Assembly: GCA_004153385.1 (NCBI GenBank)
Contig: SDAL01000005.1
Coordinates: 124,001-188,000, forward strand
Reading direction: 5' to 3'
Source of the DNA: Paracoccaceae bacterium
GTDB lineage: Bacteria; Pseudomonadota; Alphaproteobacteria; Rhodobacterales; Rhodobacteraceae
DNA: 64,000 bases
A model generated the notes under the pieces. It had not been told where the DNA came from. It did no database searches and worked only from the letters and a program-made list of their open reading frames with translations. Below, in pieces: positions 35,238 to 64,000 of this stretch (positions within the stretch are counted from its first letter, which is position 1; each line of letters opens with the position of its first letter). The translations under genes were made by a program, and so were the position numbers.

Positions 35238-35267
35238 CGCGTGACCGGCCGCTCAGGCCGTCACGCG
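35238..35267. terminator. Hairpin between convergent SelA-like and ATPase genes
   Basis: CGCGTGAC-C-GGCC pairs with GGCC-GTCACGCG across a 5-base loop, twelve pairs with one bulge. It covers the stop of the minus-strand ATPase gene, a plausible bidirectional terminator. Confidence 0.55.
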
Positions 35268-37811: not shown

Positions 37812-37822
37812 ACTCCGCTCCT

Positions 37823-38737: not shown

Positions 38738-38806
38738 GGGGGCCTCCTTCATGAGACGCCGGCACGCGCGCATGATACTCTTGCGCATGCCGGCGGGGGG
38801 CAAAAC

Positions 38807-48378: not shown

Positions 48379-49355
48379 CATATACTCCTTTTGCACCACG
48401 CCAGAGCCTGTGCCCCAATGTCGTGATCCACCCCGCGCGGCACCCCAAAAGAACGGTACGCCCTGTCCCGTCCAGTTTTTTGTCCCGTCGCCCGTAATAG
48501 GCATTCGGTGGCAGCTTCGTCAAAGGGCCACCACTGCAATGACGCTCGAATGGCCCCGAAACACCCCGCGCCCTGTCATCACGCATCCCACCCGCCCATC
48601 CGGTTTTTCACCACCCTTGGGCCGGTCACGGCGCAAGACGATAGGAGGCGGTCTGAAGGGCCAAAGCATGACGGGCCTAAGCATGACGGGCCTAAGCATG
48701 ACGGGCCTGACAGGCGCAAGACCCCGCCTGCGCACCGGTCTGCCAGATCAGGCAGCCCGGTGCCGCCCGCTTTGAGGGCTGTTGTCACGCCTTGCGTGGA
48801 CCATTGATGCAGCTGCGAGCCCTATTATGATGCGAACATGCCGGGACCCTACCGTAGGATAACTATATCTATACATATCAATTAATTAAAATATTATATT
48901 AAGATAATACGTGAAGCAGGTTTGGTCCCAAACAGGACTTTCTGTAGCAACTGGTGCAATACATAACGTCCCGTTGAACAGGTGCAATACAGCCGCCCCG
49001 CCGCGTTGGGCCGCTCCAAAACGCAAGCCCCAAGGCCGCGCATCCGTTGTCATTTTCTCCGGCCCTTTTGCGCCGGAGCGACGGCCGAGGACTGAAGATG
49101 CCCTTCAAGCGGCCTGCCGTCTCGCGGGACCAGAGCGCATGTGATGACACCGCAGCAACCGCGCTCGATACCGAACTGGGGGTTGAGGTGCCCAGCGTGA
49201 TGCGCGATCGGCCACACAGAGCATGACCATGATCGCGCTCACAAATAAGATTAACTTTGTCTATTAATTATCTGATTGTAGGATACTTATTGCTGCTTCT
49301 CAGATCTTCAAACACGGCCCGTCATCTGATGTGACCCGCACGCCCCGTACCGAGC
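48379..49355. other. Gene-free interval with repeats
   Basis: No supported gene in about 980 bp. It holds a 15-bp triple repeat at 48664-48708, an AT-rich stretch at about 48850-48910, two direct copies of GGTGCAATACA (about 48953 and 48981) flanking AACG-TCC-CGTT, and another AT-rich stretch at about 49245-49300. It looks like decayed or regulatory DNA leading into the permease relics. Confidence 0.5.
48664..48708 (+). repeat. 15-bp tandem repeat, three copies
   Basis: AAGCATGACGGGCCT repeated exactly three times in apparently non-coding DNA. Confidence 0.9.
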
Positions 49356-49955
49356 GTGCGCCGCGGTTCCTTCATGCGGTCAATGCCCGATGAGGTGGGA
49401 AATGTCTTGCTGATCTTGCAAGGGCGGCACTGGACGGTCGGGGTGATCCTCGGGGCGCTGATGCTGGGGGCGGTTCTGGGCTTTCTGGTCATGCTGGCCC
49501 GCGTCCGCCACAAGATCGCGCGGCGCTGGTGCGCCATCGGCTATATCGCCCTTGTCAGGGCCATTCCGCCGATTGTCTGAATCGTTATCGTGTTTTCCGG
49601 CATCGGATCGGGTGCCCTTGCGATGGACCCGTCCATGGCCGCCCTGATGGCCCTTGGTCTGATCGCATCCGCCAATATGGCGGAGGTCTGGCACGCGGGG
49701 CCGGCGACTGTGCCCGCCGGTCAGACAGAGGCCGCGCCCGACATCGACATCGACATCGACCGGTGGTCACACGTCTCGGGCATTATCCTGCCGGTGATGG
49801 AGAGTGTGTCTTTGCCCGGTGCGGCCACCTATGCCATCGCGCTTTTGAAAGACAGCGCCATCGCGTCCACCATCGGGGGACGGAACTGGCCGTTCAGGGC
49901 GGCTATGTGGGCAAGATGACCTATCGCGAACGGCCCGTGCTGGGGAGTGTGGCGG
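49356..49955 (+). pseudogene. Amino-acid ABC transporter permease (HisM/GlnP type), disrupted
   Basis: The plus strand reads as a polar-amino-acid permease: LLILQGRHWTVGVILGALML, VRHKIARRWCAIGYIALVRA and IPPIV, then an in-frame TGA at 49578. The same frame resumes with FSGIGSGALAMDPSMAALMA and NMAEVWHAGPATVPAGQTEA (EAA loop). A 6-bp repeat GACATC inserts IDIDID at about 49740, and a further shift near 49890 leads to VQGGYVGKMTYRERPVLGSV in another frame. One stop and one frameshift make it inactive. Confidence 0.8.
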
Positions 49956-50013
49956 TCATCTATATCCTGTTGTCGCGGCCCATCGCCGCGCTGTCGACCG
50001 TAAACTCAGAACG

Positions 50014-50338
50014 ATGGTGGCACGAGGGAACGATCTCTGGCTTGGACCCACATGGGCCGGTATCGCCCGATGGTTGCGTGATCTGTGGCAGGGGGTTGTG
50101 CTGTCGCTTCAGGTGACGGGGCTGACCCTGCTGATCGGCATTCCGCTGGGGCTGGTGTTCGCGCTGGCGGCCAATGCACGTCTGGCTGTGGTGCGATGGG
50201 CGATCCTGATCACGGTCGAAATCGGTCGCGGCGCGCCTGCACTATTGGTGATCCAGTTTGTCTATTCGGGCCTGCCACAGGCGGGGCTTACGGCTGTGCC
50301 CGCAGGCCAGCGCGAGGCGGCCCAAAAACTCGATCAGC
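50014..50338 (+). pseudogene. Second amino-acid ABC permease fragment with internal deletion
   Basis: Starts like a HisQ/HisM-type permease (WLRDLWQGVVLSLQVTGLTL, IGIPLGLVFALAANARLAVV, EIGRGAPALLVIQFVYSGLP). It then jumps from QAGLT directly to the EAA-loop end AVPAGQREAAQKL, so the central helices are deleted. Similarity then stops. With the preceding relic it represents a lost amino-acid importer. Confidence 0.75.
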
Positions 50339-50662
50339 CGCGCCGTGATCAAACTCGACACCGCGGGCCATATCGATCGCCCTGTCGATGCCCCAGGCCG
50401 GCGCAAAGTGTCGTGGACGCTGGCCGCGCAAGGTCAGGGGGCCTGCGACGCGCTGATGCAGATCCATCTCAGGCGGCAGAAGGAAATTCTTGCCACCCTG
50501 ACACGGGCCGAACGTGACCTGCTCGAGGATCTGCTTTTGAAATCCCCCCGGGCCGCCGAGGGCAATGGGGGCGCCGGTTCTAGGCTGCGGGCAGGTTGCG
50601 GACCGCGCATGTTTGTCTTGCGTGGCCTGCGCGCTTGGGGGCGCGGCAGGCAGGCGGCGTGA
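50339..50662 (+). pseudogene. MarR-family regulator C-terminal fragment
   Basis: Frame 50339-50662 reads VIKLDTAGHIDRPVDAPGRR, KVSWTLAAQGQGACDALMQI and ILATLTRAERDLLEDLLLK. This matches the wing and C-terminal dimerisation helix of MarR regulators (L-D-x-x-G-x-I-x-R, D-x-R-x-x-x-x-x-L-T, then L-x-x-L). The N-terminal helices are absent because the fragment is joined to the permease relic. Non-functional. Confidence 0.55.
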
Positions 50663-50704: not shown

Positions 50705-52267
50705 TCAGTGAAAGGACGGCCCGTGCAGACGCTGCCATACGAGATTGCGCGCACGCGACAAGGACAGCGTCAGCCGGTCGGGGCCGTCCTCGCACAGGCA
50801 CACGCGCCGCGTCCATGGCGGATCGGGCTGGGTGAACAGATACCGCCCACCCCCCGAAGGACCACCCCCCAAAGGATCGCCGTCCAGCGGATCGAGCGGC
50901 ATGACCCGCCGCGTGGGCCCTGTGCCACGGACAACCGCCCCGTTGCGGATCTCCATCACCCCCCCATGCGGGACGCAGCGCCACAGCCCGTCAAGATGCA
51001 CAGGCGCAGGGCCACCGGTGTGCGCGGGTTTGAAATGGACAGGCGCATGGCCTGCAAAGCCGCGCAAGTCCCCGTCCTGCATATGCAATTGCAACCGCGA
51101 GGTGGGCGAGAAACTATCCGCCCCGCCATCGGCGCTTGCAAACAGGGCCACCTCATCGTCCAGCCTGCGCGCGCTGTGTGGCGTAATCTCCAGCCAGTCA
51201 GCCCCGTCGGCTGCGACATAAAGGCCGGGCGTCAGGCAATGGGGCGCGCGGGTCTGGGCGATCCCCAGAAGGGCCGCCATCACCTGCGTCGTCATCTCGG
51301 CGCCATTGGCATCATCGCGGTTGGCCACCATGGCCACGCCTGTGCGGGTTTGGGGGCAGAACAACAGATAGCTTTTATAGCCCGGTTGCGCCCCGCCGTG
51401 GCCGACAAGCGCCACATCGCCCAAGTGTTGGTGGCGCAGCCCCAGACCGTAGCCAGTCTTACGACCGTCGGACAAATGGCGCGGGGCGGCAAGCCGGTCC
51501 AACAGTCCCGATTGTGCGCCTGTGCCAGCCAAAAGCGCCCGCCCCCAGCGCGCGAGACTGCGCCCCGATCCGCACAGCGCGCCTGCCGCCGACAGATGCA
51601 TGCCCTGCATCCCGATCTGCCAGCCCTGCGGCCCCGCCCAGTAGCCCGTCGCAAGCCCCGCCACCGGATCCAGCCAATACTCCTGTGCAGAGAAATCCAG
51701 ATCCAGCGCTGCGGCCAGACGCGCGACATAGGGCGCAAACGCGATGCCCTTTCGGCGCAAGGCCTCCTCCACCAGCCGGTAGCCGCCGTTGGAATAATGC
51801 ACCTCTGTGCCGGGGGCATAGCTGGGCGCGGGCATCGCCTTGTGAAAGGCCAGAAGATCGTCGACCTCGGTGCGGGTAAACACCGAATGCCCCAAAAGCG
51901 TCAGGGCCTCGCGGGTGTCGGGCACGCCGCCCGTCATATCCAGCGCCTGCCCCACCGTGATCGCCGCCATCGCAGGCGCAAGGTCTGGCAGATGCGCGCC
52001 CAAAGGATCCTCCAGCGCGATCACATCACTTTGGGCCAGCACAAAACTGCAAAACACATGTTTGGTGATCGAGGCCAGACGCGTGGGGGTGTCGGGGCGG
52101 AAGCCATCCCCGCCCCCCAGACCGGTGCCACCTGCGGCATGGGCAAACCGCTCACCCTCGTGATCGAAGGCCACTATCGCCCCGCCCGGCCCGTCCATGT
52201 GCCAGTCGGTCAAAAGCGCGCGGGCGCAGTCGGCAGCCGCAGGCCAGTTCAGCGCTGATGTCGTCAT
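50705..52267 (-). CDS. dap: D-aminopeptidase (DAP-type penicillin-recognising serine hydrolase)
   Basis: Serine hydrolase of the class C beta-lactamase superfamily, 520 aa, the length of Ochrobactrum anthropi D-aminopeptidase. Catalytic SITK with S66 and K69, YSN at 158-160 and HGG at 290-292 are all present. The C-terminal about 190 residues correspond to the two extra beta-barrel domains that restrict DAP to peptides with an N-terminal D-amino acid. No signal peptide, so it is cytoplasmic and would release D-amino acids from imported peptides. GGAGG precedes the ATG; 45 bp after the last ATPase gene of the importer operon. Alternative: another serine beta-lactamase-like esterase. Confidence 0.85.
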   Translation of the reverse strand: MTTSALNWPAAADCARALLTDWHMDGPGGAIVAFDHEGERFAHAAGGTGLGGGDGFRPDTPTRLASITKHVFCSFVLAQSDVIALEDPLGAHLPDLAPAMAAITVGQALDMTGGVPDTREALTLLGHSVFTRTEVDDLLAFHKAMPAPSYAPGTEVHYSNGGYRLVEEALRRKGIAFAPYVARLAAALDLDFSAQEYWLDPVAGLATGYWAGPQGWQIGMQGMHLSAAGALCGSGRSLARWGRALLAGTGAQSGLLDRLAAPRHLSDGRKTGYGLGLRHQHLGDVALVGHGGAQPGYKSYLLFCPQTRTGVAMVANRDDANGAEMTTQVMAALLGIAQTRAPHCLTPGLYVAADGADWLEITPHSARRLDDEVALFASADGGADSFSPTSRLQLHMQDGDLRGFAGHAPVHFKPAHTGGPAPVHLDGLWRCVPHGGVMEIRNGAVVRGTGPTRRVMPLDPLDGDPLGGGPSGGGRYLFTQPDPPWTRRVCLCEDGPDRLTLSLSRARNLVWQRLHGPSFH

Positions 52268-52312
52268 GGCGTTGCCTCCAGTTCTGTGTAGGGCCCAAAG
52301 ACGCCCGGACCG

Positions 52313-53074
52313 TCAGACAGCGGGCGCATCGACGGTTTCGAGGCTCAGGCTCAACGCCGCAAGATCGCGGGTGTGGGGGTGGGTGGCCCCGCCCTCGCGC
52401 AAAGTGCGGGTCGACAATTGCTCGACCATCTCGCCATGCTGCATCACGCCCATATGCTCGCACAGATGCGCGATCACGGCCAGATTGTGACTGACCATCA
52501 CATACGTCAGCCCCAACCGGCGGCGCAGATCGGCCAGCAGGTTCAGCACCTCGGCCTGCACCGAGACATCGAGCGCGGATGTCGGCTCGTCGAGCAGCAA
52601 AACCTCCGGCTCGGCGATCAGGGCCCGCGCGATCGCCACCCGCTGGCGCTGGCCCCCCGACAGCTGATGGGGAAAACGGAACCGGACCGAGGGCGGCAAG
52701 GCCACCTCGGCCAGGGCGCGATTGACGCGCCCATCGATATCGCCGGTCCTGTTGACCAGCAAGAATTCCGACAGGATGCGGTCGATCGTCTGGGCAGGAT
52801 GGAGCGATCCGAAGGGGTCCTGAAACACCATCTGGACCTTGGTGTAGAACGCCCCGCTGCGTTTCAGGCCAACAGGCGTGCCCTCAAACGCAATCCGCCC
52901 CGACCAGTCGCGGTTTAACCCGGCAAGCGCGCGCAGCACGGTGGATTTTCCCGAACCCGATTCACCCACAATGCCGAAACACGCCCCGCGCGCCACGTTG
53001 AAATCGACCCCCTTGACGACCTCGCTCGCCCCGAAGGCGATCCGGAGCCCTGCCACATCGATCATCGTGTTCAT
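52313..53074 (-). CDS. Dpp/Opp-type ABC ATPase (DppF-like, third importer)
   Basis: Short ATPase of 253 aa with [71 protein letters not shown] and VMVSHNLAVIAHLC. It ends soon after the nucleotide-binding domain and lacks the cysteine-containing C-terminal extension of most DppF proteins, as seen in compact members. Starts by ATGA overlap with the DppD-like gene. Confidence 0.92.
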   Translation of the reverse strand: MNTMIDVAGLRIAFGASEVVKGVDFNVARGACFGIVGESGSGKSTVLRALAGLNRDWSGRIAFEGTPVGLKRSGAFYTKVQMVFQDPFGSLHPAQTIDRILSEFLLVNRTGDIDGRVNRALAEVALPPSVRFRFPHQLSGGQRQRVAIARALIAEPEVLLLDEPTSALDVSVQAEVLNLLADLRRRLGLTYVMVSHNLAVIAHLCEHMGVMQHGEMVEQLSTRTLREGGATHPHTRDLAALSLSLETVDAPAV

Positions 53075-53913
53075 AGCGGTGTCTCCTCTAGCCAGGCCGC
53101 ATCACGCGCGAGCACGGGCAATGTCTCGCGGGGCTGGTTGAGTGCGGGCATGCAGTTCAAAAGCCCGCGGGTATAGGGATGGCGGGCCTGCGCCAGATCG
53201 GCGGCCGCGATCTCTTCCATCTGGCGGCCCATATACATCACGCTGACCCGGTCGCAAAAATGCGACACCAGCGGCAGATCGTGACTGATCAGGATCAGGC
53301 CCATATTGCGGCGCTCGACCAGTGCATCGATCAGGCGCAGGATCTCGGCCTGCACCGAGGCATCCAGCGCCGATGTCGGCTCGTCGGCAATCAGCAGGTC
53401 CGGATCGGGTGCCAGCATCATCGCAATCATCGCGCGCTGGCCCATGCCGCCCGAAACCTCGTGGGGATAGGCATCCAGCACCTTTGCGGGGTTGCGGATC
53501 ATCACCTGTTCCAGCAGATCAAGCGCAGCCTCGCGGGCCATCTTGCGGCTGCCTGTGTTATGGGCCCGCCAGCTTTCGGCAATTTGCGTGCCGATGGTTT
53601 TCACCGGATTGAGCGAATATTTCGGGTCCTGCAGCACAAAGCCCATCCGCCCGCCACGGATCCGGCGCATCTGGCGTTCGGACCGGGTCAGAAGATCGAC
53701 CCCGTCGAACTGCATGCGCGTGGCGCTGATGATCGCCTGCGGCGGCAGCAGTTTCATCATGGCGCGCGCGGTCAGCGATTTGCCGGAGCCGGATTCGCCC
53801 ACAATGCCCAGCTTTTCGCGCGGCGCAAGCGACAGGTTGACCCCGCGCACCGCCTCGAAGCGTTTGCCGTTGCCCTCGAAGGCAATCCGGAGATCTTGGA
53901 TGTCCACCAACAT
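53071..53913 (-). CDS. Dpp/Opp-type ABC ATPase (DppD-like, third importer)
   Basis: ATPase of 280 aa: [74 protein letters not shown] and ILISHDLPLVSHFC. Signature reads SGGMGQR rather than SGGMRQR. Also lacks the long C-terminal extension. It lies 12 bp downstream of the DppC-like gene and pairs with the DppF-like ATPase. Confidence 0.92.
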   Translation of the reverse strand: MLVDIQDLRIAFEGNGKRFEAVRGVNLSLAPREKLGIVGESGSGKSLTARAMMKLLPPQAIISATRMQFDGVDLLTRSERQMRRIRGGRMGFVLQDPKYSLNPVKTIGTQIAESWRAHNTGSRKMAREAALDLLEQVMIRNPAKVLDAYPHEVSGGMGQRAMIAMMLAPDPDLLIADEPTSALDASVQAEILRLIDALVERRNMGLILISHDLPLVSHFCDRVSVMYMGRQMEEIAAADLAQARHPYTRGLLNCMPALNQPRETLPVLARDAAWLEETPL

Positions 53914-53925
53914 GAATTCGGCCCC

Positions 53926-54825
53926 TCAGCTTTGTTTCGGGTCAAGCACGTCGCGCAGACCATCGCCCAGAAAGTTGAACGCCAGCGAGATCATCAAAAT
54001 CGCAATGCAGGGCGAAAGCGCCACCCAGTATTGATCCAGAATAAACCGTTTGGCAGTGGCGATCATCGCCCCCCATTCGGGGCTGGGCGGCTGCGCCCCC
54101 ATGCCCAGAAAGCCAAGGCTGGCCGCGGTGATGATGATCGAGGACATATCCAGCGTGACACGCACGATCAGCGACGGCACACATAGCGGCGCCACATGGC
54201 GCGCCACGATCCGCCACGACGATGCGCCCGTCATATGCACAGCCTCGATGAAATCGGTGCCACGGATGGTCAGCGTTTCGGCGCGGGCAATGCGTGCATA
54301 GGGCGGCCATGCGGTCAGTGCGATTGCAAGGATCGCGCTTTGCACACCGGGGCTGAGGGCGGCCACGAAGGCAAGTGCCAGGATCAACCGTGGAAAGGCC
54401 AGAAACACATCCGTCACCCGCATCAGGCAGGTATCGACCCAGCCCCCGAAATAGCCCGCAACCGCCCCGACAGCCAATCCCAAGGGCGCCACCAGCACCA
54501 CGACCGCGATCACCATGCCCAGTGTCACACGGCCCCCGTAAAGTAGCCGCGACAGGATATCGCGCCCCAGCTCGTCGGTGCCCAGAGGATGCGCCACAGA
54601 CGGTTTTGCAAGCCGGTTGCCCAGCTCCTGCATCGCCGGATCATAGGGGGCCAGCACAGGCGCCAGCACCGCAAGCGCGACACAGGCCACGATGATCACC
54701 AGCCCGATCATTGCCAGCGGGTTGCCCTTCAACGCAAGCCAGACGCGGTAGCGCCGCCCCCATGCGGCCTGACGGCGCGAGTTGGCATTGTCATCCAATG
54801 CCCATGTTCGAAAATCACTCAGCAT
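53926..54825 (-). CDS. Dpp/Opp-type ABC permease (DppC-like, third importer)
   Basis: Permease of 299 aa with the DppC pattern LAKPSVAHPLGTDELGRDIL, EAA loop IEAVHMTGASSWRIVARHVA, AASLGFLGMGAQPPSPEWGA and the end GDGLRDVLDPKQS. The start is the ATG at 54825 (AAAGG upstream); a much longer open frame runs back into the DppB-like gene but is only a shadow. Confidence 0.93.
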   Translation of the reverse strand: MLSDFRTWALDDNANSRRQAAWGRRYRVWLALKGNPLAMIGLVIIVACVALAVLAPVLAPYDPAMQELGNRLAKPSVAHPLGTDELGRDILSRLLYGGRVTLGMVIAVVVLVAPLGLAVGAVAGYFGGWVDTCLMRVTDVFLAFPRLILALAFVAALSPGVQSAILAIALTAWPPYARIARAETLTIRGTDFIEAVHMTGASSWRIVARHVAPLCVPSLIVRVTLDMSSIIITAASLGFLGMGAQPPSPEWGAMIATAKRFILDQYWVALSPCIAILMISLAFNFLGDGLRDVLDPKQS

Positions 54826-54836
54826 GGTTTCGGCCT

Positions 54837-55850
54837 TTATGTAACGCGCGGGTCGAAGACCCGGTAGAGAAGATCGGCCAGCAGGTTCAACCCGACATAC
54901 ACGCACCCGATCAACAGTGTTGTGCCCATCACGGGGTTCATGTCGCCATTCATCAACGAGGTGGTCAGATATTGCCCCAGACCCGGCCATGCAAAGACGG
55001 TTTCGGTCACAACCGCGCCCTCCAGCAGACCCGCATAGGTCAACACCAAGACGGTGATCAGCTGCACGGCCACATTGGGAAACGCATGGCCCATCACCAC
55101 AGTCCAGCTTGACAGGCCCTTGGCCCGCGCGGCCACGATATACTCGCCCTTGAGCGCGCCCAGCATGAACGCCCGCGTCATGCGTGTGATATAGGCCATC
55201 GAGAAATAGCTCAGGATACACACCGGCAGCAGCATATGATGCACCGCATCGCGAAACGCGCCCATATCACCGGCCATCAGACTGTCCACTGTCAGAAATC
55301 CGGTGACCGTCGGAACCATGCCCTCAAAGATGATCCCCTGCCGCCCGGGCCCCGGAACCAGATCAAGCCCCACGTAGAACACCAGCAACCCGATCAGCGC
55401 CAGCACGAAAACCGGCACGGAATGGCCCGCCAGACACACCACACGGATCACCTGATCGGTGACACTGCCCTGCCGGACCGCCGCCCAGATCCCCAATGGC
55501 ACGCCGATCACCGCCGCAAGAAACAGCGCGACTGTTGCCAGCTCCATCGTGGCCGGAAAATAATGCGCAATATCGCTTGCGACCTGATTATGCGTCAACA
55601 CCGAGCGGCCGAAATCCCCGTGCAGCACCTGCACCAGATACTGCCAGAACTGCTGGAGGATCGGATCATCCAGTCCCATCTCGGCCCGCGCCTGGCGGAC
55701 CACGGCCTCGGGGGCATTATCGCCCACCGCCGCAATGACGGGATCGACAGGCATCACGCGCCCGATCATGAAAGTGACAATGGCCAAGCCCAGCAGCGTC
55801 ACCAAGACGCTGCCGAGCAAAGAGCCGAACGATTTCAAATTCAGGGTCAC
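54837..55850 (-). CDS. Dpp/Opp-type ABC permease (DppB-like, third importer)
   Basis: Permease of 337 aa. It starts at a GTG that overlaps the binding-protein stop by 4 bp, with no alternative ATG before the first helix (LLGSVLVTLLGLAIVTFMIG). DppB features: EMGLDDPILQQFWQYLVQVL with HGDFGRSV, EAA loop YIVAARAKGLSSWTVVMGHA and VTETVFAWPGLGQYL. Slightly longer than usual in the central periplasmic loop. Confidence 0.92.
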   Translation of the reverse strand: MTLNLKSFGSLLGSVLVTLLGLAIVTFMIGRVMPVDPVIAAVGDNAPEAVVRQARAEMGLDDPILQQFWQYLVQVLHGDFGRSVLTHNQVASDIAHYFPATMELATVALFLAAVIGVPLGIWAAVRQGSVTDQVIRVVCLAGHSVPVFVLALIGLLVFYVGLDLVPGPGRQGIIFEGMVPTVTGFLTVDSLMAGDMGAFRDAVHHMLLPVCILSYFSMAYITRMTRAFMLGALKGEYIVAARAKGLSSWTVVMGHAFPNVAVQLITVLVLTYAGLLEGAVVTETVFAWPGLGQYLTTSLMNGDMNPVMGTTLLIGCVYVGLNLLADLLYRVFDPRVT

Positions 55851-57445
55851 GCCTTGGTGGTCTCCGCGTAGGTGTTGCCATCGGGCAGCGGTGCCAAAGC
55901 CACGCCCTCCACATTCAAGCGGCAGGCGGCGGTCGTGGTTTTCTGCATCATGATCGCAAACGGGCTGTTATGGGCGAAATACTTCTGCAGCGCGATATAC
56001 ATCTCGATGCGTTTTGCCTCGTCGCGCTCGTCGCGTGCGGCCACGGCCATCTCGATGATCTTGTCGTCCTTGAAGCTGGACCGCCATGCGAAGGATTTCA
56101 CATCCGCATCGGGCGAATTGTCGGTATTGATACAAAACGCATCGGCATTCGCATTGGGATCAAAATAGTCGGTCCCCCATGCCGACAGGATCATCTGGTG
56201 TTCGCGGGCGCGCATCTTGGTCAGCACCTGACGGTTCTCGCCGGAGATCAGATTGGCCTTGATGCCCGCTTTGGCCAGATCGGACTGGATGGCTTGGGCC
56301 ACATCCGGATAGGGCTGTGCGGAGTAGTGATCGAAGGTGATCTCGAACCCGTCGGGAAGGCCCGCCTCGGCCAGAAGCGCCTTGGCTTTGTCGATATCTT
56401 GGTGGAAATACATCTCGGTATCGGCCCCGGGCAGCCCTTCGGGGATGATCGACTGGTGGATATCATGCGTGCCCGACAGAATGTTTTTCTGGATGGACGT
56501 GTAGTTGATCGCCCATTTCACCGCCTCCCATACCTTGGGATCGGACAGGGTCTCATTGGCCACATTCATCGACAACAGCATCAAGGACGCCTGCTTTTCA
56601 CGCAGCATCTTCACATCCGGATTGTCGCCCAGCGATGTGATCTGTTCGGTCGTCAGGTTGCGCGCGATATCCACATCCCCTTTGGACAGCATCAGCTGCT
56701 GGGCCGAAGGGTCGATGATGTGGCGCAGGATAATCCGTTTCAGGCTGCCCTCATAGGCGCCATTGGGATTGACGTTCAACGTGATCGTGTCGGACGGACG
56801 CCAGACCTGCAGCACGAACGCGCCCGAACCGGCGGAGTTCTTGTCAAGCCATGCAGAGCCCCAGTCATCGCCCTCGGCCTGCTTGCTGACCACGGCTTTT
56901 TCGACGACCGAGCCGACATTGGCCGACAGACAATAGAGCAAAAACCCGATGGCCGTCGGCTGCTCGGTCGTGATGACCAAAGTCTCGTCATCGGTGGCGC
57001 GCACACGCTGTGCCACATTTTCAGGGGTAAAGCCGAATTGCGTGATGATGAACGCGGGGCTTTTGTTGAGCGTGACCACACGCTGCAGCGACCATGCGCA
57101 ATCGTGGGCCGTAAGCGGCCCGCCGGAGGCGAACTTTTGGCCCTTTGCGATCTTGAAGGTGAAGGTTTTCCCCTCAGCATCGGCCTGCCAGCTTTCGGCG
57201 ATTTCCGGCAAGACCTCATCTGCGTTCTCGAGGCTGGGCCGCACCAGCTTTTGATACATATTGCCGCAAATTTCGGACCCGACGGCCTCGAAGCTCACAT
57301 GCGGGTCCAAGGTGGTCATGTTGTCAAGCTGCTGGGCCACAACAAGGATATCTTTGGGCGTCGCGGCCAGTGCGGCCGTCATCGTCAGGTAGCTGACAGT
57401 GGGAAACGCGGCGGCAGTGGCAATGAAATTACGTCTGGTCAGCAT
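55847..57445 (-). CDS. Dpp/Opp-type ABC binding protein with Tat-like signal (third importer)
   Basis: Family-5 binding protein of 532 aa. The start is taken as the ATG at 57445, giving MLTRRNFIATAAAFPTVSYL, with a twin-arginine motif (TRRNFI) followed by a hydrophobic stretch, so export is probably by the Tat pathway. Mature part: VAQQLDNMTTLDPHVSFEAV, TFTFKIAKGQKFASGGPLTA and SAGSGAFVLQVWRPSDTITL. Longer in-frame starts add residues with no similarity. It heads the operon of permeases, ATPases and D-aminopeptidase, so the ligand is probably a D-amino-acid-containing peptide. Confidence 0.9.
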   Translation of the reverse strand: MLTRRNFIATAAAFPTVSYLTMTAALAATPKDILVVAQQLDNMTTLDPHVSFEAVGSEICGNMYQKLVRPSLENADEVLPEIAESWQADAEGKTFTFKIAKGQKFASGGPLTAHDCAWSLQRVVTLNKSPAFIITQFGFTPENVAQRVRATDDETLVITTEQPTAIGFLLYCLSANVGSVVEKAVVSKQAEGDDWGSAWLDKNSAGSGAFVLQVWRPSDTITLNVNPNGAYEGSLKRIILRHIIDPSAQQLMLSKGDVDIARNLTTEQITSLGDNPDVKMLREKQASLMLLSMNVANETLSDPKVWEAVKWAINYTSIQKNILSGTHDIHQSIIPEGLPGADTEMYFHQDIDKAKALLAEAGLPDGFEITFDHYSAQPYPDVAQAIQSDLAKAGIKANLISGENRQVLTKMRAREHQMILSAWGTDYFDPNANADAFCINTDNSPDADVKSFAWRSSFKDDKIIEMAVAARDERDEAKRIEMYIALQKYFAHNSPFAIMMQKTTTAACRLNVEGVALAPLPDGNTYAETTKA

Positions 57446-57577
57446 ACCGGGGAACATCCTTTTTCTATCACAGCAGGCCATGGCCATCGGAGGGGCGCAC
57501 ATGGCCAATGGGGCTATCCGTCTGATACAACGGGCTAGCACGCCCAATTTTTGATCAGCCAATGCCGAATTGGGGAC

Positions 57578-57589
57578 ATATCATGATAT
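57578..57589. promoter_or_regulatory. Perfect 12-bp palindrome in divergent intergenic region
   Basis: ATATCATGATAT lies between the divergent importer operon and the dipeptidase gene in AT-rich DNA. Candidate operator or part of a promoter. Confidence 0.35.
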
Positions 57590-57711
57590 TTTTGCATAGT
57601 TGATGTTTTTCAATATGTTATGATTCATCCTCTCGGGGCTGCATTTACAGCAACGCTTGCATTGCATTTTTTTTGGGCACAAAACCGGGGTGAACCTCGC
57701 CGGAGCCCCCT

Positions 57712-58755
57712 ATGCCATCCTTGCCAGACTTCCCCGTATTCGACGGTCATAACGATGCCCTTTTGCGCCTGTGGCGCAGTCCCGATCCGCAGGCGATCGG
57801 CCATTTTCTGGACGGCGGTGCAGACCCTCAGGGCCATATCGATCTGGTGCGCGCACGCGAAGGTGGTCTGGCGGGCGGGTTATGCGCGATCTATGTGCCA
57901 TCGGAACGGGTGCTGGATGATCAGGGCAACTGGCCCACCCCCAGCCGCGAGGACGCGCTGGAGGCCACCACCGCCATGGCCGGTTTGCTGCACCGCCTTG
58001 AGGCCGCCTCCGGCGGGGGATTAAGCCTGTGTCGTACCGCCGCCGACATCCGCGCGGCGATGGCACGCGGCAGCTTTGCCGCCGTCATGCATATCGAGGG
58101 CGCAGAGGCGATCGGGGCCGATCTGGATCTGCTATATCTTTTGCACGCGGCCGGTTTGCGCAGTCTGGGCCCGGTCTGGAGCCGGCCCAATATCTTTGCC
58201 TTCGGGGTGCCCTTCCGCCATCCCCACAGCCCCGATATCGGGCCGGGCCTGTCGGGCCATGGCAAGGCGCTGGTACGTGCGTGTAACGACCTGAAGATCA
58301 TGCTCGATCTGTCGCACCTCAACGAGGCCGGGTTTTGGGATGTGGCGCGATTGTCGGATGCGCCGCTTGTGGCCTCGCATTCCAATGTGCATGCCATCTG
58401 CCCCCACAGCCGCAATCTGACCGATGCCCAGCTTGACGCGATCGGCGACACAGGCGGTCTGGTCGGGATCAATTTCGGGGTGATGTTCCTGACCCCCGAC
58501 AGCCGCCGCGATCTGGCAATGGATCTGTCGCAAATGGTGCGCCATGTCGATTACATCGTGGAGCGGATCGGGATCGAGCATGTGGCCTTCGGGTCCGATT
58601 TCGACGGCACGACCATTCCGGCCGCCTTGCGCGATTGCAGGGACCTGCCAACGCTTCTGGCCGCGTTCCGGACCGCAGGATATGACGATGCCAGCCTGCG
58701 CAAACTGTCGCATGAAAACTGGCTGCGGGTGCTGGAACGCACGCTGGGCGGCTGA
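57712..58755 (+). CDS. Membrane-dipeptidase family (peptidase M19) dipeptidase
   Basis: Zinc dipeptidase of the renal dipeptidase family, 347 aa. Zinc ligands are visible: H13 and D15 in DGHNDALLRL, E in VMHIEGAEAIG, H in DLSHLNEAGF and H in LVASHSNVHAI; GSDFDG closes the barrel. M19 enzymes accept dipeptides with a D-residue at the C-terminal position, complementing D-aminopeptidase, which needs an N-terminal D-residue. No signal peptide, so cytoplasmic despite the family name. Divergent from the importer operon. Confidence 0.92.
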   Translation: MPSLPDFPVFDGHNDALLRLWRSPDPQAIGHFLDGGADPQGHIDLVRAREGGLAGGLCAIYVPSERVLDDQGNWPTPSREDALEATTAMAGLLHRLEAASGGGLSLCRTAADIRAAMARGSFAAVMHIEGAEAIGADLDLLYLLHAAGLRSLGPVWSRPNIFAFGVPFRHPHSPDIGPGLSGHGKALVRACNDLKIMLDLSHLNEAGFWDVARLSDAPLVASHSNVHAICPHSRNLTDAQLDAIGDTGGLVGINFGVMFLTPDSRRDLAMDLSQMVRHVDYIVERIGIEHVAFGSDFDGTTIPAALRDCRDLPTLLAAFRTAGYDDASLRKLSHENWLRVLERTLGG

Positions 58756-58817
58756 CGGGCCCGAATGTGGCCCCAAGCACGGCCCCGAATGCAGCGCCGG
58801 ACGCGGTGGCGTGCGCG

Positions 58818-59891
58818 CTATCTCGAGCGGGCCAGCCAGTCGCTGAAGGCCGGACGCGCAACGCCTGTGAACCCGTCCACGGGGCGCGCGGCACAAAGCG
58901 CGTTCAGGATCGCTTCTTGCGTCGCCTCGGCTGCGGCACGGAACAGATCATCGATCCGGTCGTCATGCAGCCGCATATGCGCACACAGATCGGACGTGGC
59001 CGCGTGGGGGATCCGGTTTTGGGTGGTAAATCCCAGCACGATATCGCCACTGCCATTGCCCCAAAACGCCCCGAGGCGCGCAATACCCGCCCCCGCACGG
59101 CGGCACACGCGCGCCAGCTGATGGCAATCGAGCGCGATATCACACGCCAGCACGACGATGATCGAGCCTTTCTCGCCCTCGGGCACAGCAACAGCAGGAT
59201 CTGCGCCGGTGTCAGGCACGGGCCTGCGGCCATCGGGCAGAACCAGATCGCCTGCCCGCCCGAAATTGGCCAGCACCAGCGCGCCCAAGTGCCGCGTCTC
59301 CCCCGCGATCTGCAGCGCGCGCGAGGCCGTGCCGATCCCGCCCTTGAAGCCGAAACAGCTCATCCCCGTGCCAGCCCCCACAGAGCCTTCGCCCACCGCC
59401 TCGCCCGCGATGTCCAGCGCACGGCGCGCATCCTCTTCGGTGACCGCCATCGCCTGAATATCCGACAGTGCCCCGTCGTTACATTCCCCCACCACCGCAT
59501 TGACCGTCGAGGTGGTGCGCCCGATCTGCGGGTTTTGCGCAACCGCATGGCGCACAAGCGCGTTCACACATGTGCCCACCGCAAAGGTATTGCTCAGCAG
59601 GATCGGGGTCTCCAGCGTGCCCAGCTCCGCAATCTGCACAAGACCTGCGGATTTACCAAACCCGTTGACCACATCGACCGCGGCGGTCAGTTTTTGCGCA
59701 AAAAGATTGCCCGCCTGCGGCACGATCGCGGTGACACCGGTGTTCACCCCCGCTCCCTGCCGCGTCACATGGCCCACCTTCACGCCCGCCACATCGGTGA
59801 TGGCATTGCGCGGCCCCGCTGGCAGCTGGTTTGCGCCCAAAGCGGCGATCAGCCCGTGGGCGCGCGCGCGTGGATAGGAAGATGTCGACAT
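58818..59891 (-). CDS. P1-family peptidase (DmpA/BapA-like, self-cleaving Ntn-type hydrolase)
   Basis: L-aminopeptidase D-esterase/D-amidase family protein of 357 aa. The expected self-cleavage site is G242-S243 in EGEKGSIIVVLACD; the freed Ser243 becomes the nucleophile. Substrate-pocket blocks VNAVVGECNDGALSD and GAGTGMSCFGFKGGIGTASR match DmpA, which cleaves N-terminal L-residues and D-alanine amides or esters; BapA relatives cleave beta-peptides. The start is the ATG at 59891, sharing one base with the transaminase stop (TGATG). No signal peptide is present, unlike some periplasmic BapA proteins. Confidence 0.92.
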   Translation of the reverse strand: MSTSSYPRARAHGLIAALGANQLPAGPRNAITDVAGVKVGHVTRQGAGVNTGVTAIVPQAGNLFAQKLTAAVDVVNGFGKSAGLVQIAELGTLETPILLSNTFAVGTCVNALVRHAVAQNPQIGRTTSTVNAVVGECNDGALSDIQAMAVTEEDARRALDIAGEAVGEGSVGAGTGMSCFGFKGGIGTASRALQIAGETRHLGALVLANFGRAGDLVLPDGRRPVPDTGADPAVAVPEGEKGSIIVVLACDIALDCHQLARVCRRAGAGIARLGAFWGNGSGDIVLGFTTQNRIPHAATSDLCAHMRLHDDRIDDLFRAAAEATQEAILNALCAARPVDGFTGVARPAFSDWLARSR

Positions 59892-60778
59892 CAAACGGCC
59901 TCATACGGTGCGGACTGTGGCAAAATGCGCGGACTGCGCCGGACGGCCTGCATATAAAGCGCCTGCACACGGCGGGTAACGGGGCCGGGGCGGCCATCGC
60001 CCAGAACATGCGCGCCGATGCGCACGACCGGTGTCACAAGGCTCGACGCGCTGGTCAGAAACGCCTCTGCGGCAGTGCCTGCCTCTTGGGGGGAAAAGCC
60101 GCGCTCGTCAAGGCGCAGGCCGTCTTGGGCGACCAGATCCATAATCGCGCGGCGGGTGCAACCGGGCAGGATCGCCGGCGAATTGGGCCGCGTCACGATG
60201 CGCCCGTCATGGGTCACGATAAACGCGCTTGACGAGGCCCCTTCGGTAATCTGCCCGTCGCGGTGCAGCCATACATCGTCAAACCCGCCCTGCCGCGCGG
60301 CCTGTTTGGCCAGAACCTGCCCCAAAAGCTGGGTGGTCTTGATATCGCAGCGCAGCCAGCGCGGATCTTCGACCAGATCCACCGCAATCCCGTTGGTCTG
60401 GGCGCGGGTGTCGGCCAGTTGCTTGGGTTGGGTCAGGGCGATGAATGTCGGGCGCATGTCTGGGTCTGGCAGGAAATTGCGCTCCTGCGTGCCACGCGAG
60501 ACCTGCAGATAAATCGTTCCGTCCGTCATCGCATTGCGCCGCACCAGGTCTTGCTGGATGGTGCAGATCTCGGCCAGTGTGGCAGGCATCGCGATGCCGA
60601 TCTCCCCCAAGGAACGCGCAAGCCGCGCCAGATGCAGATCGTTATCGATCAGATGGCCATCCACCACGGCCGTCACCTCGTAGATCGCATCGCCGAATAA
60701 AAACCCGCGGTCCATCACCGGAACCTGCGCCCGGCTTTCGGGCAGATAGGCCCCGTTTATGTAGATTTCACGTTCCAT
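59891..60778 (-). CDS. dat: D-amino-acid transaminase (class IV aminotransferase)
   Basis: Fold-type IV PLP enzyme of 295 aa. The PLP lysine is K147 in LRCDIKTTQLLGQVLAKQAA and VMDRGFLFGDAIYEVTAVVD is the usual N-terminal block. IYLQVSRGTQERNFLPD matches D-amino-acid transaminases (RGxxxRxHxFP-type loop) more closely than branched-chain or ADC-lyase members. It would convert D-amino acids released by the peptidases to 2-oxo acids. The start is the ATG at 60778 with GGGGA upstream. Operon with the P1 peptidase; divergent from LysR. Confidence 0.88.
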   Translation of the reverse strand: MEREIYINGAYLPESRAQVPVMDRGFLFGDAIYEVTAVVDGHLIDNDLHLARLARSLGEIGIAMPATLAEICTIQQDLVRRNAMTDGTIYLQVSRGTQERNFLPDPDMRPTFIALTQPKQLADTRAQTNGIAVDLVEDPRWLRCDIKTTQLLGQVLAKQAARQGGFDDVWLHRDGQITEGASSSAFIVTHDGRIVTRPNSPAILPGCTRRAIMDLVAQDGLRLDERGFSPQEAGTAAEAFLTSASSLVTPVVRIGAHVLGDGRPGPVTRRVQALYMQAVRRSPRILPQSAPYEAV

Positions 60779-60870
60779 ATGCGTTCCCCAAGGCCCCGAG
60801 CGTTTACAAGGCCGCTGTCCAATCCTTGCCTCATAGGGTACTGCTGCCGCCCTGAACTGGCCAATGCCGG

Positions 60871-60893
60871 TTTCGGTGCATCCTAGACCGAAA
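60871..60893. promoter_or_regulatory. Candidate LysR-type operator
   Basis: TTTCGGT-N9-ACCGAAA, perfect 7-base arms, between divergent dat and lysR, 39 bp before the LysR start. Size and position fit an LTTR recognition site. Confidence 0.55.
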
Positions 60894-60931
60894 TTGCATA
60901 AGAGCCCGGCCCATCTGCGCAAGAGTATCTT

Positions 60932-61891
60932 ATGGAACTGAAATGGCTCGAAGATTTTGTGATGCTGTCCAGCACGGCGAGCTTTTCACGCGCCGCCGAG
61001 GCCCGCCATGTCACCCAGTCGGCATTCTCGCGCCGGATCAAACAGCTGGAGGCATGGCTGGGCGTCACGCTGGTCAATCGCGCCAGCATTCCCGCCGAGC
61101 TGACACTGGAGGGCAAAACCTTCCTGCCTGCAGCCCAGGAAATGATCCGCACCTTTTATGCGACCCGCACCGCCCTCAACCCCGATGACGAACGTCAGGG
61201 CAATGCCGTGTCTTTGGCCGCATTGCACACGCTTGTCATGACATTCCTGCCCGACTGGCTGGCACGGATGCACACCGCCCTGCCCGGCCTTTACACCAGC
61301 GTTGTGCCTGATCGTGGCGGGATCGAGGCCAATCTGGAGACATTGGTTGAAAAAGAGGCCGATGTGTTTTTGACCTATGCCCACCCTTATGTGCCGCTGT
61401 TGCTGGACCCCGAACAGTTCGATTGGCTGGTTCTGGGCGCAGAGCGCGTGTTGCCGGTGGCCGCACCGCAGGTCTGCGCCCAGTTCGCAGGTCCGCTGCG
61501 CGAGGGCGCGCGCCTGCTGGAGCAGGCCATCGAGACAGGTCATCCGCTGCCCTATCTCGATTATGGCCACGCGTCGTTTTTCGGCACCGCCCTGCACAAG
61601 GTGTTTTTCGACAATCCACCCTTCAAGCGCCGGATCCTGCACCGCAATGCCATCAGTGCGGGGTTGCGCGAACTGGCGCTGCGGGGATGGGGCATGTGCT
61701 GGCAGCCCGAAAGCCTTGTGGCCGATGATCTGGCCGCAGGGCGTCTGGTCCATGCCGGCGGCGAAAGCAGGGATTGGGAGATGAAGGTCGATATCCGGCT
61801 CTATCGCCACCGCGGGGCGGCCCGCCCGATTGTCCATAAGCTGTGGGAAACCGCAGCCAGCCTGCACCCCCGCGCAACCGCGCTGACATAG
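60932..61891 (+). CDS. LysR-family transcriptional regulator
   Basis: LTTR of 319 aa. The helix-turn-helix is FVMLSSTASFSRAAEARHVT followed by QSAFSRRIKQLEAWLGVTLV, and the linker continues to a two-lobe effector domain with little else diagnostic. It is divergent from the transaminase-P1 peptidase operon and is the natural candidate to activate it in response to a D-amino acid or peptide. Confidence 0.93.
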   Translation: MELKWLEDFVMLSSTASFSRAAEARHVTQSAFSRRIKQLEAWLGVTLVNRASIPAELTLEGKTFLPAAQEMIRTFYATRTALNPDDERQGNAVSLAALHTLVMTFLPDWLARMHTALPGLYTSVVPDRGGIEANLETLVEKEADVFLTYAHPYVPLLLDPEQFDWLVLGAERVLPVAAPQVCAQFAGPLREGARLLEQAIETGHPLPYLDYGHASFFGTALHKVFFDNPPFKRRILHRNAISAGLRELALRGWGMCWQPESLVADDLAAGRLVHAGGESRDWEMKVDIRLYRHRGAARPIVHKLWETAASLHPRATALT

Positions 61892-61977: not shown

Positions 61978-62020
61978 GGCGGGTCGCGGCCCTGCGTTTG
62001 CGGATCTACCGCGACCCGCC
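61978..62020. terminator. Hairpin between convergent lysR and ade
   Basis: GGCGGGTCGCGG (61978-61989) pairs with CCGCGACCCGCC (62009-62020), a 12-bp stem covering the ade stop codon. A smaller GCCGGT-CCCC-ACCGGC hairpin overlaps it at 61965-61980. Probable bidirectional terminator, possibly with two alternative folds. Confidence 0.6.
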
Positions 62021-63796
62021 CGTGATCCCGTCTTGCAAGACACATGTCGTCAAAACCTTGCCGCCAAAGCAATCCACCAGACCGACATCGCTCAGCCTGG
62101 GCCCCGCGTTGCACACCAGTGATGCGCCAAACAGCGCCTTGAACACCAGATAGGGCGGCTGCCATGTGACCAGCCCGTCAAGGCACTGGCGCAGCGCACG
62201 GAACTGTTGTGCCACCTGTGCCAAGGATCCCTCGCCCATCAGGCCTGCGGTGGGCAGCGCCAAGCGGGCCACGACCCGACCCGCCTCGACCACCGCAAGC
62301 CCGCCCTGCATATCGCGCACCGCATTGGCGGCCGCGGCCATATCGGCAGGATCACGCCCGAACGCGGTCAGATTGTGGCTGTCATGGGACACGGTGCTGG
62401 CATAGGCTCCGCGCCATTCTCCCCAGTTTTCAAGCAAAGCCACACGGGTGGGCGTGGCGCGACCGTAGCGATTGCTCACGCTCATCCGGATCATGTCGCG
62501 TGGGAGCACCAGATGCCCGTCGCGCACATCCACGACACGTTCGCCCCATTGCGGGAACCGCGGCTTGGACAGCGTGGCGATACGCGCGTGCGGCCCGCGG
62601 GCGGGCACCTCGAAATCAGAAGGCGTGAAGGGGGCCAGATCGACGGTACGGCCAAGGGCTGCGGGGCGGGGCACGGGCGCGGGCTCCCCCGTGATCACAT
62701 CCCCCCGCGCCACGATCTGCCCGTTCACGATCACCGCCTGCGCACGTACCTGCGCCATATCCGGCACAATCAGAAGATCCGCCCGCCGGCCCGGGGCCAC
62801 CAGCCCCAGATCGGGGCGTCCGATCCGCGTGGCCGCATTCAGCGTGGCCGCGCGCCATGTCCACTCCACAGGAAGCCCGTGCGAGATCAGCATCCGCATC
62901 AACCGGTCAAGCCCGCCGCGTGCCAGAAGATCGTCGGGAAACACATCATCGGTGCAAAGGGTGAGGGTTTGGGGCAAGTGCCCCAGCGCCAGCAGCGCAT
63001 CCACGAATTCCGGCAGCAAATGCTCGTGGGAGCCGCGCAATTCCACCGTCATCCCCGCCTCGAGCCGTGCCAGAAGATCGGCGGCGCTGGTCAGTTCGTG
63101 ATCGGTTTCAACACCGGCTGCGGCATAGGCGTTCAGATCCCCGCCCGTCAGCCCGCGGGCATGGCCACACACACGTTTGCCGCTGGCAAGCCCCGCATCG
63201 ACAATGCCCTTGACGCGGGCGTCGCCCTCCAGAAGCGGCTGCATGGTCATCAGCTCTGCCAGCCCGTGGATATCCGGTCGTGCCAGCAGCCGCGCGATCA
63301 CAAAGGCATCGAAATCGCCGCCCCCTGCCTCGAACCCCGGGGCCGAGGGCACGCAGGATGGCGCCAGAACCAACAGCCGCATGGGCGAGGCCGCCGCCGT
63401 CGCACAGGCATACTCCACCCCCGCCACACCGGCCGCATTGGCCAGCTCATGCGGGTCCCATAACGCGGTCGTCACACCGCGCGGCAGGACCTGTCGGGCA
63501 TAGTCTTCTGGCGACACCATGGAGCTTTCGACATGCATATGGGTGTCGATCAGACCGGGCAGGACAAACTGCCCCTGCGCATCAAGGCGCGCCTGCGCCG
63601 CGCGCTGGGGATCTGGGGGATGAACGCTGGCAATCATCGCGCCCACCAGCCCGATATCGGCGGGACGGATACGCCCTGTGACCATATCGGGCACTTGGGC
63701 GTTTTCGATCAGCAGATCAAAGGGGGCCTGCCCGCGTGCGGCACGCATGGCGCGCCCGCGCAGCGCGGGATCGGTCAGGGTGGGATCTGTCGTCAT
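62006..63796 (-). CDS. ade: Adenine deaminase
   Basis: Binuclear metallohydrolase of the amidohydrolase superfamily (596 aa) that deaminates adenine to hypoxanthine. DTHMHVESSMVSPEDYARQV is the family's signature block, with TTALWDPHELANAAG, GHARGLTGGDLNAYAAAG and LCTDDVFPDDL. The C-terminal adenine-deaminase domain is complete (SVSNRYGRATPTRVALLENW, VSHDSHNLTAFGRD). The start is the ATG at 63796, overlapping the upstream stop by 4 bp, so it is coupled to the gene running off the window. Confidence 0.95.
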   Translation of the reverse strand: MTTDPTLTDPALRGRAMRAARGQAPFDLLIENAQVPDMVTGRIRPADIGLVGAMIASVHPPDPQRAAQARLDAQGQFVLPGLIDTHMHVESSMVSPEDYARQVLPRGVTTALWDPHELANAAGVAGVEYACATAAASPMRLLVLAPSCVPSAPGFEAGGGDFDAFVIARLLARPDIHGLAELMTMQPLLEGDARVKGIVDAGLASGKRVCGHARGLTGGDLNAYAAAGVETDHELTSAADLLARLEAGMTVELRGSHEHLLPEFVDALLALGHLPQTLTLCTDDVFPDDLLARGGLDRLMRMLISHGLPVEWTWRAATLNAATRIGRPDLGLVAPGRRADLLIVPDMAQVRAQAVIVNGQIVARGDVITGEPAPVPRPAALGRTVDLAPFTPSDFEVPARGPHARIATLSKPRFPQWGERVVDVRDGHLVLPRDMIRMSVSNRYGRATPTRVALLENWGEWRGAYASTVSHDSHNLTAFGRDPADMAAAANAVRDMQGGLAVVEAGRVVARLALPTAGLMGEGSLAQVAQQFRALRQCLDGLVTWQPPYLVFKALFGASLVCNAGPRLSDVGLVDCFGGKVLTTCVLQDGITGGSR

Positions 63797-64000
63797 TGCA
63801 CGTCCAGTCCGCTCAGGCACGAAAGGCAGGTCCCGGCAATATCATCATCACATCCGGTGACCCGTCGCGACCGGCCCGCCGGCGCCGGTGTGAAGCGGGT
63901 CTCGCCAAAGCTGTCATCGGGTGTGATGGATACGTCCATCGCCTCGGCCACAGTCGTGAAGCGCTCGGGCGCGGCATAGAAAAGCGCGGCCACCGGATCG
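63793..64000 (-). CDS. 3' end of a gene upstream of ade, possibly a nucleoside hydrolase
   Basis: Only the last about 68 codons are in the window: DPVAALFYAAPERFTTVAEA, MDVSITPDDSFGETRFTPAP, then a Cys-containing tail CLSCLSGLDVQ. The DPVAALFYAAPERF block followed by a V-x-V strand and a T-R element resembles the C-terminus of inosine-uridine nucleoside hydrolases (HDPxAxxxxxxPxxF). A nucleoside hydrolase coupled to adenine deaminase would make sense for purine salvage. Identification is tentative. Confidence 0.4.
   Translation of the reverse strand, partial: DPVAALFYAAPERFTTVAEAMDVSITPDDSFGETRFTPAPAGRSRRVTGCDDDIAGTCLSCLSGLDVQ

Follow-up and report, generated by a model that had tools for sequence, protein, structure and literature searches.

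Positions 50705–61891 of the analyzed window (the entire stretch of DNA, 64,000 nt long, whose coordinates are used throughout) hold a ten-gene locus that is probably an accessory, LysR-controlled regulon for the import and catabolism of short D-amino-acid peptides. Five of the genes encode a Dpp-type ABC importer, and the other five an S12 serine hydrolase of 520 aa, an M19 dipeptidase, an S58 peptidase, a transaminase, and a LysR-type regulator; this inventory and its placement, as read in an earlier note on the same DNA, are borne out by the open reading frames and by Pfam. Peptides with D-amino acids, which come from cell walls and nonribosomal peptides, belong to the slowly degraded organic nitrogen, and we know of few dedicated bacterial routes described for taking them up whole. 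Literature searches, which covered few subscription papers, found no description of such a gene cluster.

The importer operon lies on the minus strand. It comprises a family 5 solute-binding protein (55847..57445; SBP_bac_5 PF00496, 264.6 bits) with a refined start at ATG 57445 and the twin-arginine-like N-terminus MLTRRNF, a DppB-type permease with a GTG start and a 4-bp overlap with the binding-protein gene (54837..55850; BPD_transp_1 PF00528, PF19300), a DppC-type permease (53926..54825; BPD_transp_1 PF00528, PF12911), for which ATG 54825 was picked as the best start within a longer open frame, DppD- and DppF-type ATPases whose genes overlap by 4 bp (53071..53913 and 52313..53074; both ABC_tran in Pfam), and, as the last gene, the S12 hydrolase (50705..52267; PF00144, E 3.9e-32). 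The M19 dipeptidase gene runs divergently on the plus strand (57712..58755; Peptidase_M19 PF01244, 342.7 bits). Beyond it, the transaminase gene (59891..60778, minus strand; refined start ATG 60778; Aminotran_4, 158.2 bits) overlaps with its stop the start of the S58 gene as TGATG (58818..59891, minus strand; refined start ATG 59891; Peptidase_S58 PF03576, 358 bits), and the LysR gene is divergent from the transaminase on the plus strand (60932..61891; HTH_1 PF00126, LysR_substrate PF03466). The N-termini of S12, M19, and S58, read by eye only, showed no signal peptide.

The importer set is complete by Pfam, with a binding protein, two permeases, and two ATPases of the peptide/nickel type. The binding protein aligns with DppA, and its twin-arginine RR pair is kept in all 11 aligned sequences, as is an Asp aligned with DppA Asp408; at DppA Arg355, it has a gap. 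We take both DppA positions to be ligand residues. Its scores on dipeptide, nickel, and glutathione models are alike (124, 114, and 114 bits), and none is near its cut-off, which is 1005 bits for the DppA model. A nickel or metallophore importer next to unrelated hydrolases would agree with NikC as the top-scoring model for DppC (290.9 bits, cut-off 358) and with the annotation of relatives as “nickel transporter permease”. However, among the matches listed no nickel model attains its cut-off, the Asp at the DppA Asp408 position is conserved, and the genes that recur with the importer encode enzymes acting on peptides and amino acids. The model scores and the conserved Asp led us to set nickel import aside as unlikely, and this arrangement as a whole strikes us as highly improbable.

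The catalytic motifs of the S12 protein are intact, as the earlier note had claimed: S66-I-T-K69, Y158-S-N160, and H290-G-G292, with S66, T68, K69, YSN, and HGG invariant across 24 orthologue rows. The protein resembles the D-aminopeptidase (DAP) of Ochrobactrum anthropi (1ei5, its best PDB match at 57.6 bits), which is also 520 aa long and has the same catalytic residues, and it is homologous to two true DAPs over nearly the whole length (hhalign probability 99.5, 26% identity). A plain identity as a true D-aminopeptidase was nevertheless ruled out by two results: the protein reaches only 81.1 bits on the curated model NF009622 (cut-off 443), on which true DAPs score 837, 699, and 669 bits (loci L102, L103, and L062), and it lacks the DAP_B domain (PF07930), PF00144 being its sole Pfam match at E ≤ 0.001. 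DAP_B is likewise missing in all three S12 orthologues scanned and was found in the true DAPs of L103 and L062. Furthermore, the stretch MDAPAPGDW, common to both true DAPs, is replaced in the window protein, and Arg278 stands where 1ei5 has Asn275. An inversion of DAP specificity was reportedly described by Delmarcelle in 2005. A structure prediction for the S12 protein that used an alignment of two sequences reached a mean pLDDT of 34.6, and no inference was drawn from this model.

Arg278 aligns, through the shared motif GYGLGLR, with Arg285 of 1cef, an S12-type relative that we take to be the Streptomyces R61 DD-peptidase. Overall similarity to 1cef is weak (35 bits), and the window protein differs from it in having HGG in place of HTG, a longer C-terminal part, and no visible signal peptide. 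The residue is present in 17 of the 24 orthologue rows, corresponding to 16 of 23 genomes; it was ruled out as a strict class marker, as the seven rows without it include three from clusters (L088, L094, and L098). In the DD-peptidase, according to the available part of PMC4570186, this Arg recognizes the C-terminal D-Ala carboxylate of the substrate. Arg278 suggests that the S12 enzyme, too, recognizes a C-terminal carboxylate; taken with the failed D-aminopeptidase tests, it leads us to propose that this enzyme may cleave free-acid D-dipeptides. The subfamily offers enzymes whose stereospecificity may be new, and the labels “D-aminopeptidase” and “serine hydrolase” under which its members are annotated may mask a specificity for a free C-terminal acid.

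The same residue also fits a narrower function in peptidoglycan turnover, with the locus tuned to D-Ala-D-Ala and other stem-peptide fragments as a counterpart of E. coli ddpXABCDF and not as a broad scavenger. This operon, which joins an ABC importer and a D-dipeptide hydrolase, provides a precedent for a D-Ala-D-Ala transporter and dipeptidase encoded together (PMC8743547, in the part available). Similarly, a Rhodobacteraceae strain that grows on peptidoglycan and D-amino acids carries an importer operon proposed for D-amino-acid-containing peptides; its linked enzyme is a carbamoylase, and the accessible portion of that report mentions no S12, M19, or S58 partner or shared regulator (PMC11747546). 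The ddpXABCDF operon differs from the window locus: its hydrolase, DdpX, is an M15 peptidase and not an S12 enzyme (PMC6403190, available sections), it contains no M19, S58, or transaminase gene, and it is activated by NtrC/RpoN instead of a local LysR (PMC8743547, same part). By analogy, the window locus would follow the logic of ddpXABCDF with a different gene content. A narrow tuning to peptidoglycan fragments appears possible but doubtful to us: D-Ala-D-Ala needs less than three hydrolases and a transaminase, the S58 and true-DAP partners suggest broader substrates, and Arg278 is absent from seven rows, three of them from clusters.

The remaining enzymes are described here with the preferred reading, a regulon for short D-amino-acid peptides more generally. 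The M19 protein has 3ly0 and 3fdg as its best PDB matches, and its motifs HND, H-[ILV]-EG, LSH, SHSN, and GSDFDG, presumably those of the metal site, are kept in all 13 sequences. The S58 peptidase matches its family over the full length and scores highest with the structure 2drh (271.8 bits), less with 1b65 (185.3) and 3n2w (141), which we take to be the Pyrococcus-type “D-aminopeptidase”, DmpA, and BapA, respectively; its GSGD site, presumably for autoprocessing, is present in 15 of 15 sequences. The transaminase passes the “D-amino-acid transaminase” model NF005209 (353.4 bits, cut-off 320) and stays below the narrower equivalog TIGR01121 (232 bits, cut-off 277). Because the genome has second copies of both M19 (54% identical) and transaminase (48%) elsewhere, we judged a housekeeping role for the copies in the locus unlikely. 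In the order of steps that we propose, the importer would carry short peptides with D-residues into the cytoplasm, where S12 and M19 would cleave complementary stereoisomers, S12 probably after and M19 before a D-residue, in line with what is known of their families. S58 would deal with amides or with additional residues at the N-terminus. Judged by its family, the transaminase would convert the freed D-amino acids to 2-oxo acids.

Both divergent promoters contain the element CCAATGC-N28-GCATA, a predicted LysR operator identified by motif comparison and given no strand (57559..57598, between the binding-protein and M19 genes; 60861..60900, between the transaminase and LysR genes). The 3.77-Mb genome has three exact copies, two at this locus and one within a 347-aa frame on another contig; since the motif was derived from both window regions and their counterparts before counting, this exact-match argument is inflated. 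In the relaxed form CCAAT[G/T]C-N28-GCAT, whose G/T position was fixed after viewing the Rhizobiales sites, the element lies in the expected place at 16 of 17 cluster loci (the exception being L099) and has 20 matches in these loci, 19 of them in the expected intergenic places, compared with none in the 327,275 bp of 17 control loci. A scan of spacer lengths from 15 to 45 gave 20 matches at 28, six at 19, and zero to two at every other length; five of the six matches at 19 were traced to the inner GCAT of N28 sites, and the sixth lies elsewhere in L092. At L058, one promoter has the element only with two mismatches. Genome-wide, up to two mismatches yielded 409 sites (209 + 200) versus 163 (82 + 81) for the backwards pattern, and weak sites were therefore not counted as evidence. 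That the two halves of the gene set are preceded by a common element suggests that they are switched on together, and a single LysR protein acting at it would govern both divergent promoters. With a regulon that recurs and a DNA element that is defined, a dedicated route of D-peptide uptake becomes testable, as the element predicts targets.

The comparison set comprises 25 loci with an S12 orthologue, the window included, in 24 genomes, since a single plasmid accounts for both L059 and L090. M19 occurs at 16 of these loci, LysR at 15, the importer (scored as present by DppB of at least 71%) and the transaminase at 13 each, and S58 at 11. All ten genes are found at seven loci, with some genes matching in pieces in L087 and L093, and eight loci have no partner orthologue nearby. 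For example, L058, from the same family, has all ten genes in identical arrangement at 59–84% identity, and Puniceibacterium antarcticum (L027) has M19, importer, and S12 at 69–91% on a contig that stops 238 bp beyond M19. Gene order is not the same in Rhodobacterales and Rhizobiaceae. As the gene set recurs in other genera, its clustering is more than chance. The distribution of the locus is accessory; the LysR protein had no match at E ≤ 1e-60 among 15 congeners. Two unrelated neighbouring operons, importer–S12 and transaminase–S58–LysR, with separate functions and regulators, would be compatible with Ensifer/Sinorhizobium loci L085, L086, and L091, in which the orthologous importer is not adjacent to S12, and with L062–L065, in which S58/LysR modules occur without an S12 orthologue (the one in L063 being accompanied by an amino-acid ABC importer). 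We regard this as improbable, given the identical element and spacer ahead of both halves and the seven loci that keep all ten genes together.

In two genomes, Shinella (L103) and G273 (L062), a true DAP adjoins an S58/LysR module related to that of the window (S58 60 and 64%, LysR 52 and 53%). Tentatively, and from sequence comparison, we propose that the window S12 protein represents an uncharacterised subfamily of cytoplasmic D-dipeptidases that has DAP architecture, a carboxylate-binding Arg of the R61 type, and a C-terminal loop that is rebuilt. It would cut D-Xaa-Yaa while M19 cuts L-Xaa-D-Yaa, and it would be interchangeable with a true D-aminopeptidase within a transferable alphaproteobacterial regulon marked by the relaxed element. 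The dedicated D-peptide pathway put forward in the earlier note gains from these two genomes, from the recurring co-clustering, and from the shared operator-like element; the division of labour that it proposes among the enzymes stays hypothetical, in view of the failed curated tests of S12 and of Arg278, which suggests carboxylate recognition. S12, M19, and S58 families all contain members with other substrates, and a general scavenging of mainly L-peptides, beta-peptides, or amides, with the D-names as inherited annotation, would accord with the low NF009622 score and missing DAP_B of S12, with the beta-peptidyl aminopeptidases in the S58 family (3n2w), and with the similar model scores of the binding protein. 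We consider it unlikely. The gene of a transaminase that passes a D-specific model overlaps that of S58, and the neighbour of the related LysR/S58 module is a curated D-aminopeptidase, joined in Shinella by a transaminase (59%) as well as an M55 peptidase. The presence of four D-linked families side by side is difficult to account for in another way.

The genes that the earlier note had named are all present at their positions, as confirmed by gene reading with Pfam and curated family models. The importer operon is encoded on the minus strand and begins with a binding protein (55847–57445), followed by two permeases and two ATPases and, in the same strand run, by an S12 serine hydrolase related to D-aminopeptidase (DAP; 50705–52267). 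Genes in the operon overlap by 4 bp at binding protein/DppB and at DppD/DppF. An M19 dipeptidase (57712–58755, plus strand), whose best PDB match is 3ly0, a Rhodobacter enzyme, is divergent from the binding protein. The second divergent pair is formed by a LysR regulator (60932–61891, plus strand) and a transaminase–S58 unit (60778–58818, minus strand), in which the transaminase stop overlaps the start of the DmpA/BapA-type S58 peptidase (TGATG). Against NF005209, a curated D-specific model, the transaminase scores above the cut-off (353.4 against 320 bits), and it stays below the cut-off of the narrower TIGR01121 (232 bits; 277 needed). The binding protein starts with MLTRRNF, and the RR pair in this stretch is retained by all 11 sequences aligned, which suggests Tat export.

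In the plasmid collection, the S12 orthologues form a clearly delimited family: the listing covers 60 of 83 matching records, 31 reach at least 80% query coverage at 39–56% identity, and the listed rows that follow are partial and below 30% identity. We compared 25 loci from 24 genomes, comprising the window, five loci from genome searches (L027, L058, L059, L060, and L104) and 19 from the 31 plasmid records (L083–L101; L059 and L090 are one plasmid). Near the S12 orthologue, M19 occurs in 16 of these loci and a LysR of at least 41% identity in 15; the importer, scored by a DppB of at least 71%, and the transaminase are each present in 13, and S58 is present in 11. All ten genes occur in seven loci (the window, L058, L087, L089, L092, L093, and L097), counting L087 and L093, where some genes match in pieces. 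These two are Neorhizobium plasmids in which several cluster genes are fragmented, through decay or sequencing error. Partner orthologues are absent from eight of the 25 loci (L059, L060, L084, L090, L095, L096, L100, and L101), with a more distant importer and LysR near the S12 gene of L084. Gene order varies: in Rhizobiaceae, S12 is followed by LysR, on which the transaminase and S58 genes converge, and in Rhodobacterales transaminase and LysR are divergent.

Both divergent intergenic regions, aligned with their counterparts, share the element CCAATGC-N28-GCATA (57559–57598 and 60861–60900). The whole genome holds three exact copies, the third lying on another contig within a 347-aa frame. 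A relaxed form, CCAAT[G/T]C-N28-GCAT, gave 20 matches across the 17 loci with at least one partner gene; 19 lie 5′ of the binding protein, between M19 and S12, or 5′ of the transaminase (four cases, three also adjoining LysR). The remaining match, in L099, sits elsewhere, so that the element is in place in 16 of 17 loci. Six further S58/LysR or true-DAP loci contain four matches, all adjoining LysR, and the eight lone-orthologue loci contain two, which are one sequence seen twice. By comparison, no match was found in 17 control loci (327,275 bp), which are other S58 or S12 neighbourhoods where no such LysR was found. Among spacers of 15–45, only 28 (20 matches) and 19 (six matches) exceed two matches, and five of the latter six reflect an inner GCAT within the same sites. 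Against the argument from counts, the motif was defined on regions later counted, and one L058 promoter carries it only with two mismatches. Since LysR stands beside the sites, we infer that they are candidate elements bound by this regulator.

The catalytic residues of the S12 protein are kept in the orthologue alignment, and homology to two true DAPs spans residues 24–513, nearly the full length, whereas the protein fails both curated tests, the D-aminopeptidase model NF009622 and the DAP_B domain PF07930, the latter missing in all three orthologues scanned. A gap-free alignment joins the GYGLGLR stretch of the S12 protein to both the DD-peptidase 1cef and the D-aminopeptidase 1ei5, placing Arg278 opposite Arg285 and Asn275, respectively. 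According to PMC4570186, Arg285 of a "DD-peptidase", taken as the R61 enzyme from the matching residue and the references of that text, recognises the carboxylate of the C-terminal D-Ala. At the position aligned with Arg278, the two true DAPs compared carry Ser and Gln, and the MDAPAPGDW stretch common to them is replaced in the S12 protein. Arg occupies this position in 17 of 24 aligned rows, from 16 of 23 genomes; in the remaining rows the residue is Val (L088, L094), Ala (L095, L098, L101), Tyr (L096), or Ser (L100). Deletion of a loop, with a further mutation, reportedly made DAP behave more like a carboxypeptidase (Delmarcelle 2005). On the strength of the failed tests, Arg278, the replaced stretch and these mutants, we lean towards a D-dipeptidase or carboxypeptidase, with an aminopeptidase as a possible alternative.

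The locus has an accessory distribution. None of 15 congeners has a clear orthologue (a single weak match in genome G014, E 5e-9) or the LysR at E≤1e-60, and four have a binding protein 41–42% identical (E≤1e-120). At E below 1e-100, and including the window's own genome, S12 occurs in four of 394 genomes of the family sample and two of 385 of the class sample. A second transaminase (48%) and a second M19 (54%) are encoded elsewhere in the genome. Related modules occur with other partners. True D-aminopeptidases in Shinella (L103, 699 bits) and genome G273 (L062, 669 bits; cut-off 443) adjoin S58 (60 and 64%) and LysR (52 and 53%) related to the window's; L103 further carries a transaminase (59%), an M55 peptidase, and a peptide-type importer. 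In L063, a LysR–transaminase–S58 module accompanies an amino-acid ABC importer. Release and use of D-amino acids would be the theme constant across the swapped modules. Three S58/LysR clusters also contain a PF07969 amidohydrolase (L103, 15468–17093, 439 bits; L062, 4776–6554, 400 bits; L065, 11233–13026, 395 bits) transcribed divergently from LysR; the element lies between the two genes or at the amidohydrolase start, and the enzyme may also belong to the regulon.

From the parts list, its linkage and the shared element, we infer a mechanism in which short peptides would be imported by the ABC importer and cleaved in the cytoplasm, by S12 after and by M19 before a D-residue; S58 would take amides or further residues as substrates, 2-oxo acids would be formed by the transaminase, and one LysR would turn on both halves of the locus. 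The general kind of system is already known, because comparable operons have been described. The nearest logic described is that of E. coli ddpXABCDF (PMC8743547), which differs in its hydrolase and regulator; a Rhodobacteraceae strain is reported to grow on D-amino acids and peptidoglycan and to possess an importer operon with a D-carbamoylase (PMC11747546). Among the papers that our literature searches listed, none described this gene set, S12 subfamily, or element. The locus is a well-supported, testable predicted regulon, although made of known families.

The window also encodes a second peptide-type importer (35261–40309), with an SBP_bac_5 binding protein (38807–40309), a permease (36876–37811), and a fused double ATPase (35261–36904). 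The locus is flanked by an acetamidase/formamidase-family protein (47006–47950) and an adenine-deaminase-like amidohydrolase (62006–63820). Overlapping frames at 49529–50662 look, by eye, like what is left of an amino-acid ABC permease and of the C-terminus of a regulator; the three frames tested gave no Pfam match, and they are possibly decayed genes adjoining the locus. A tandem repeat at 48654–48708 consists of 3.7 copies of the 15-bp unit TGACGGGCCTAAGCA with 95% matches.
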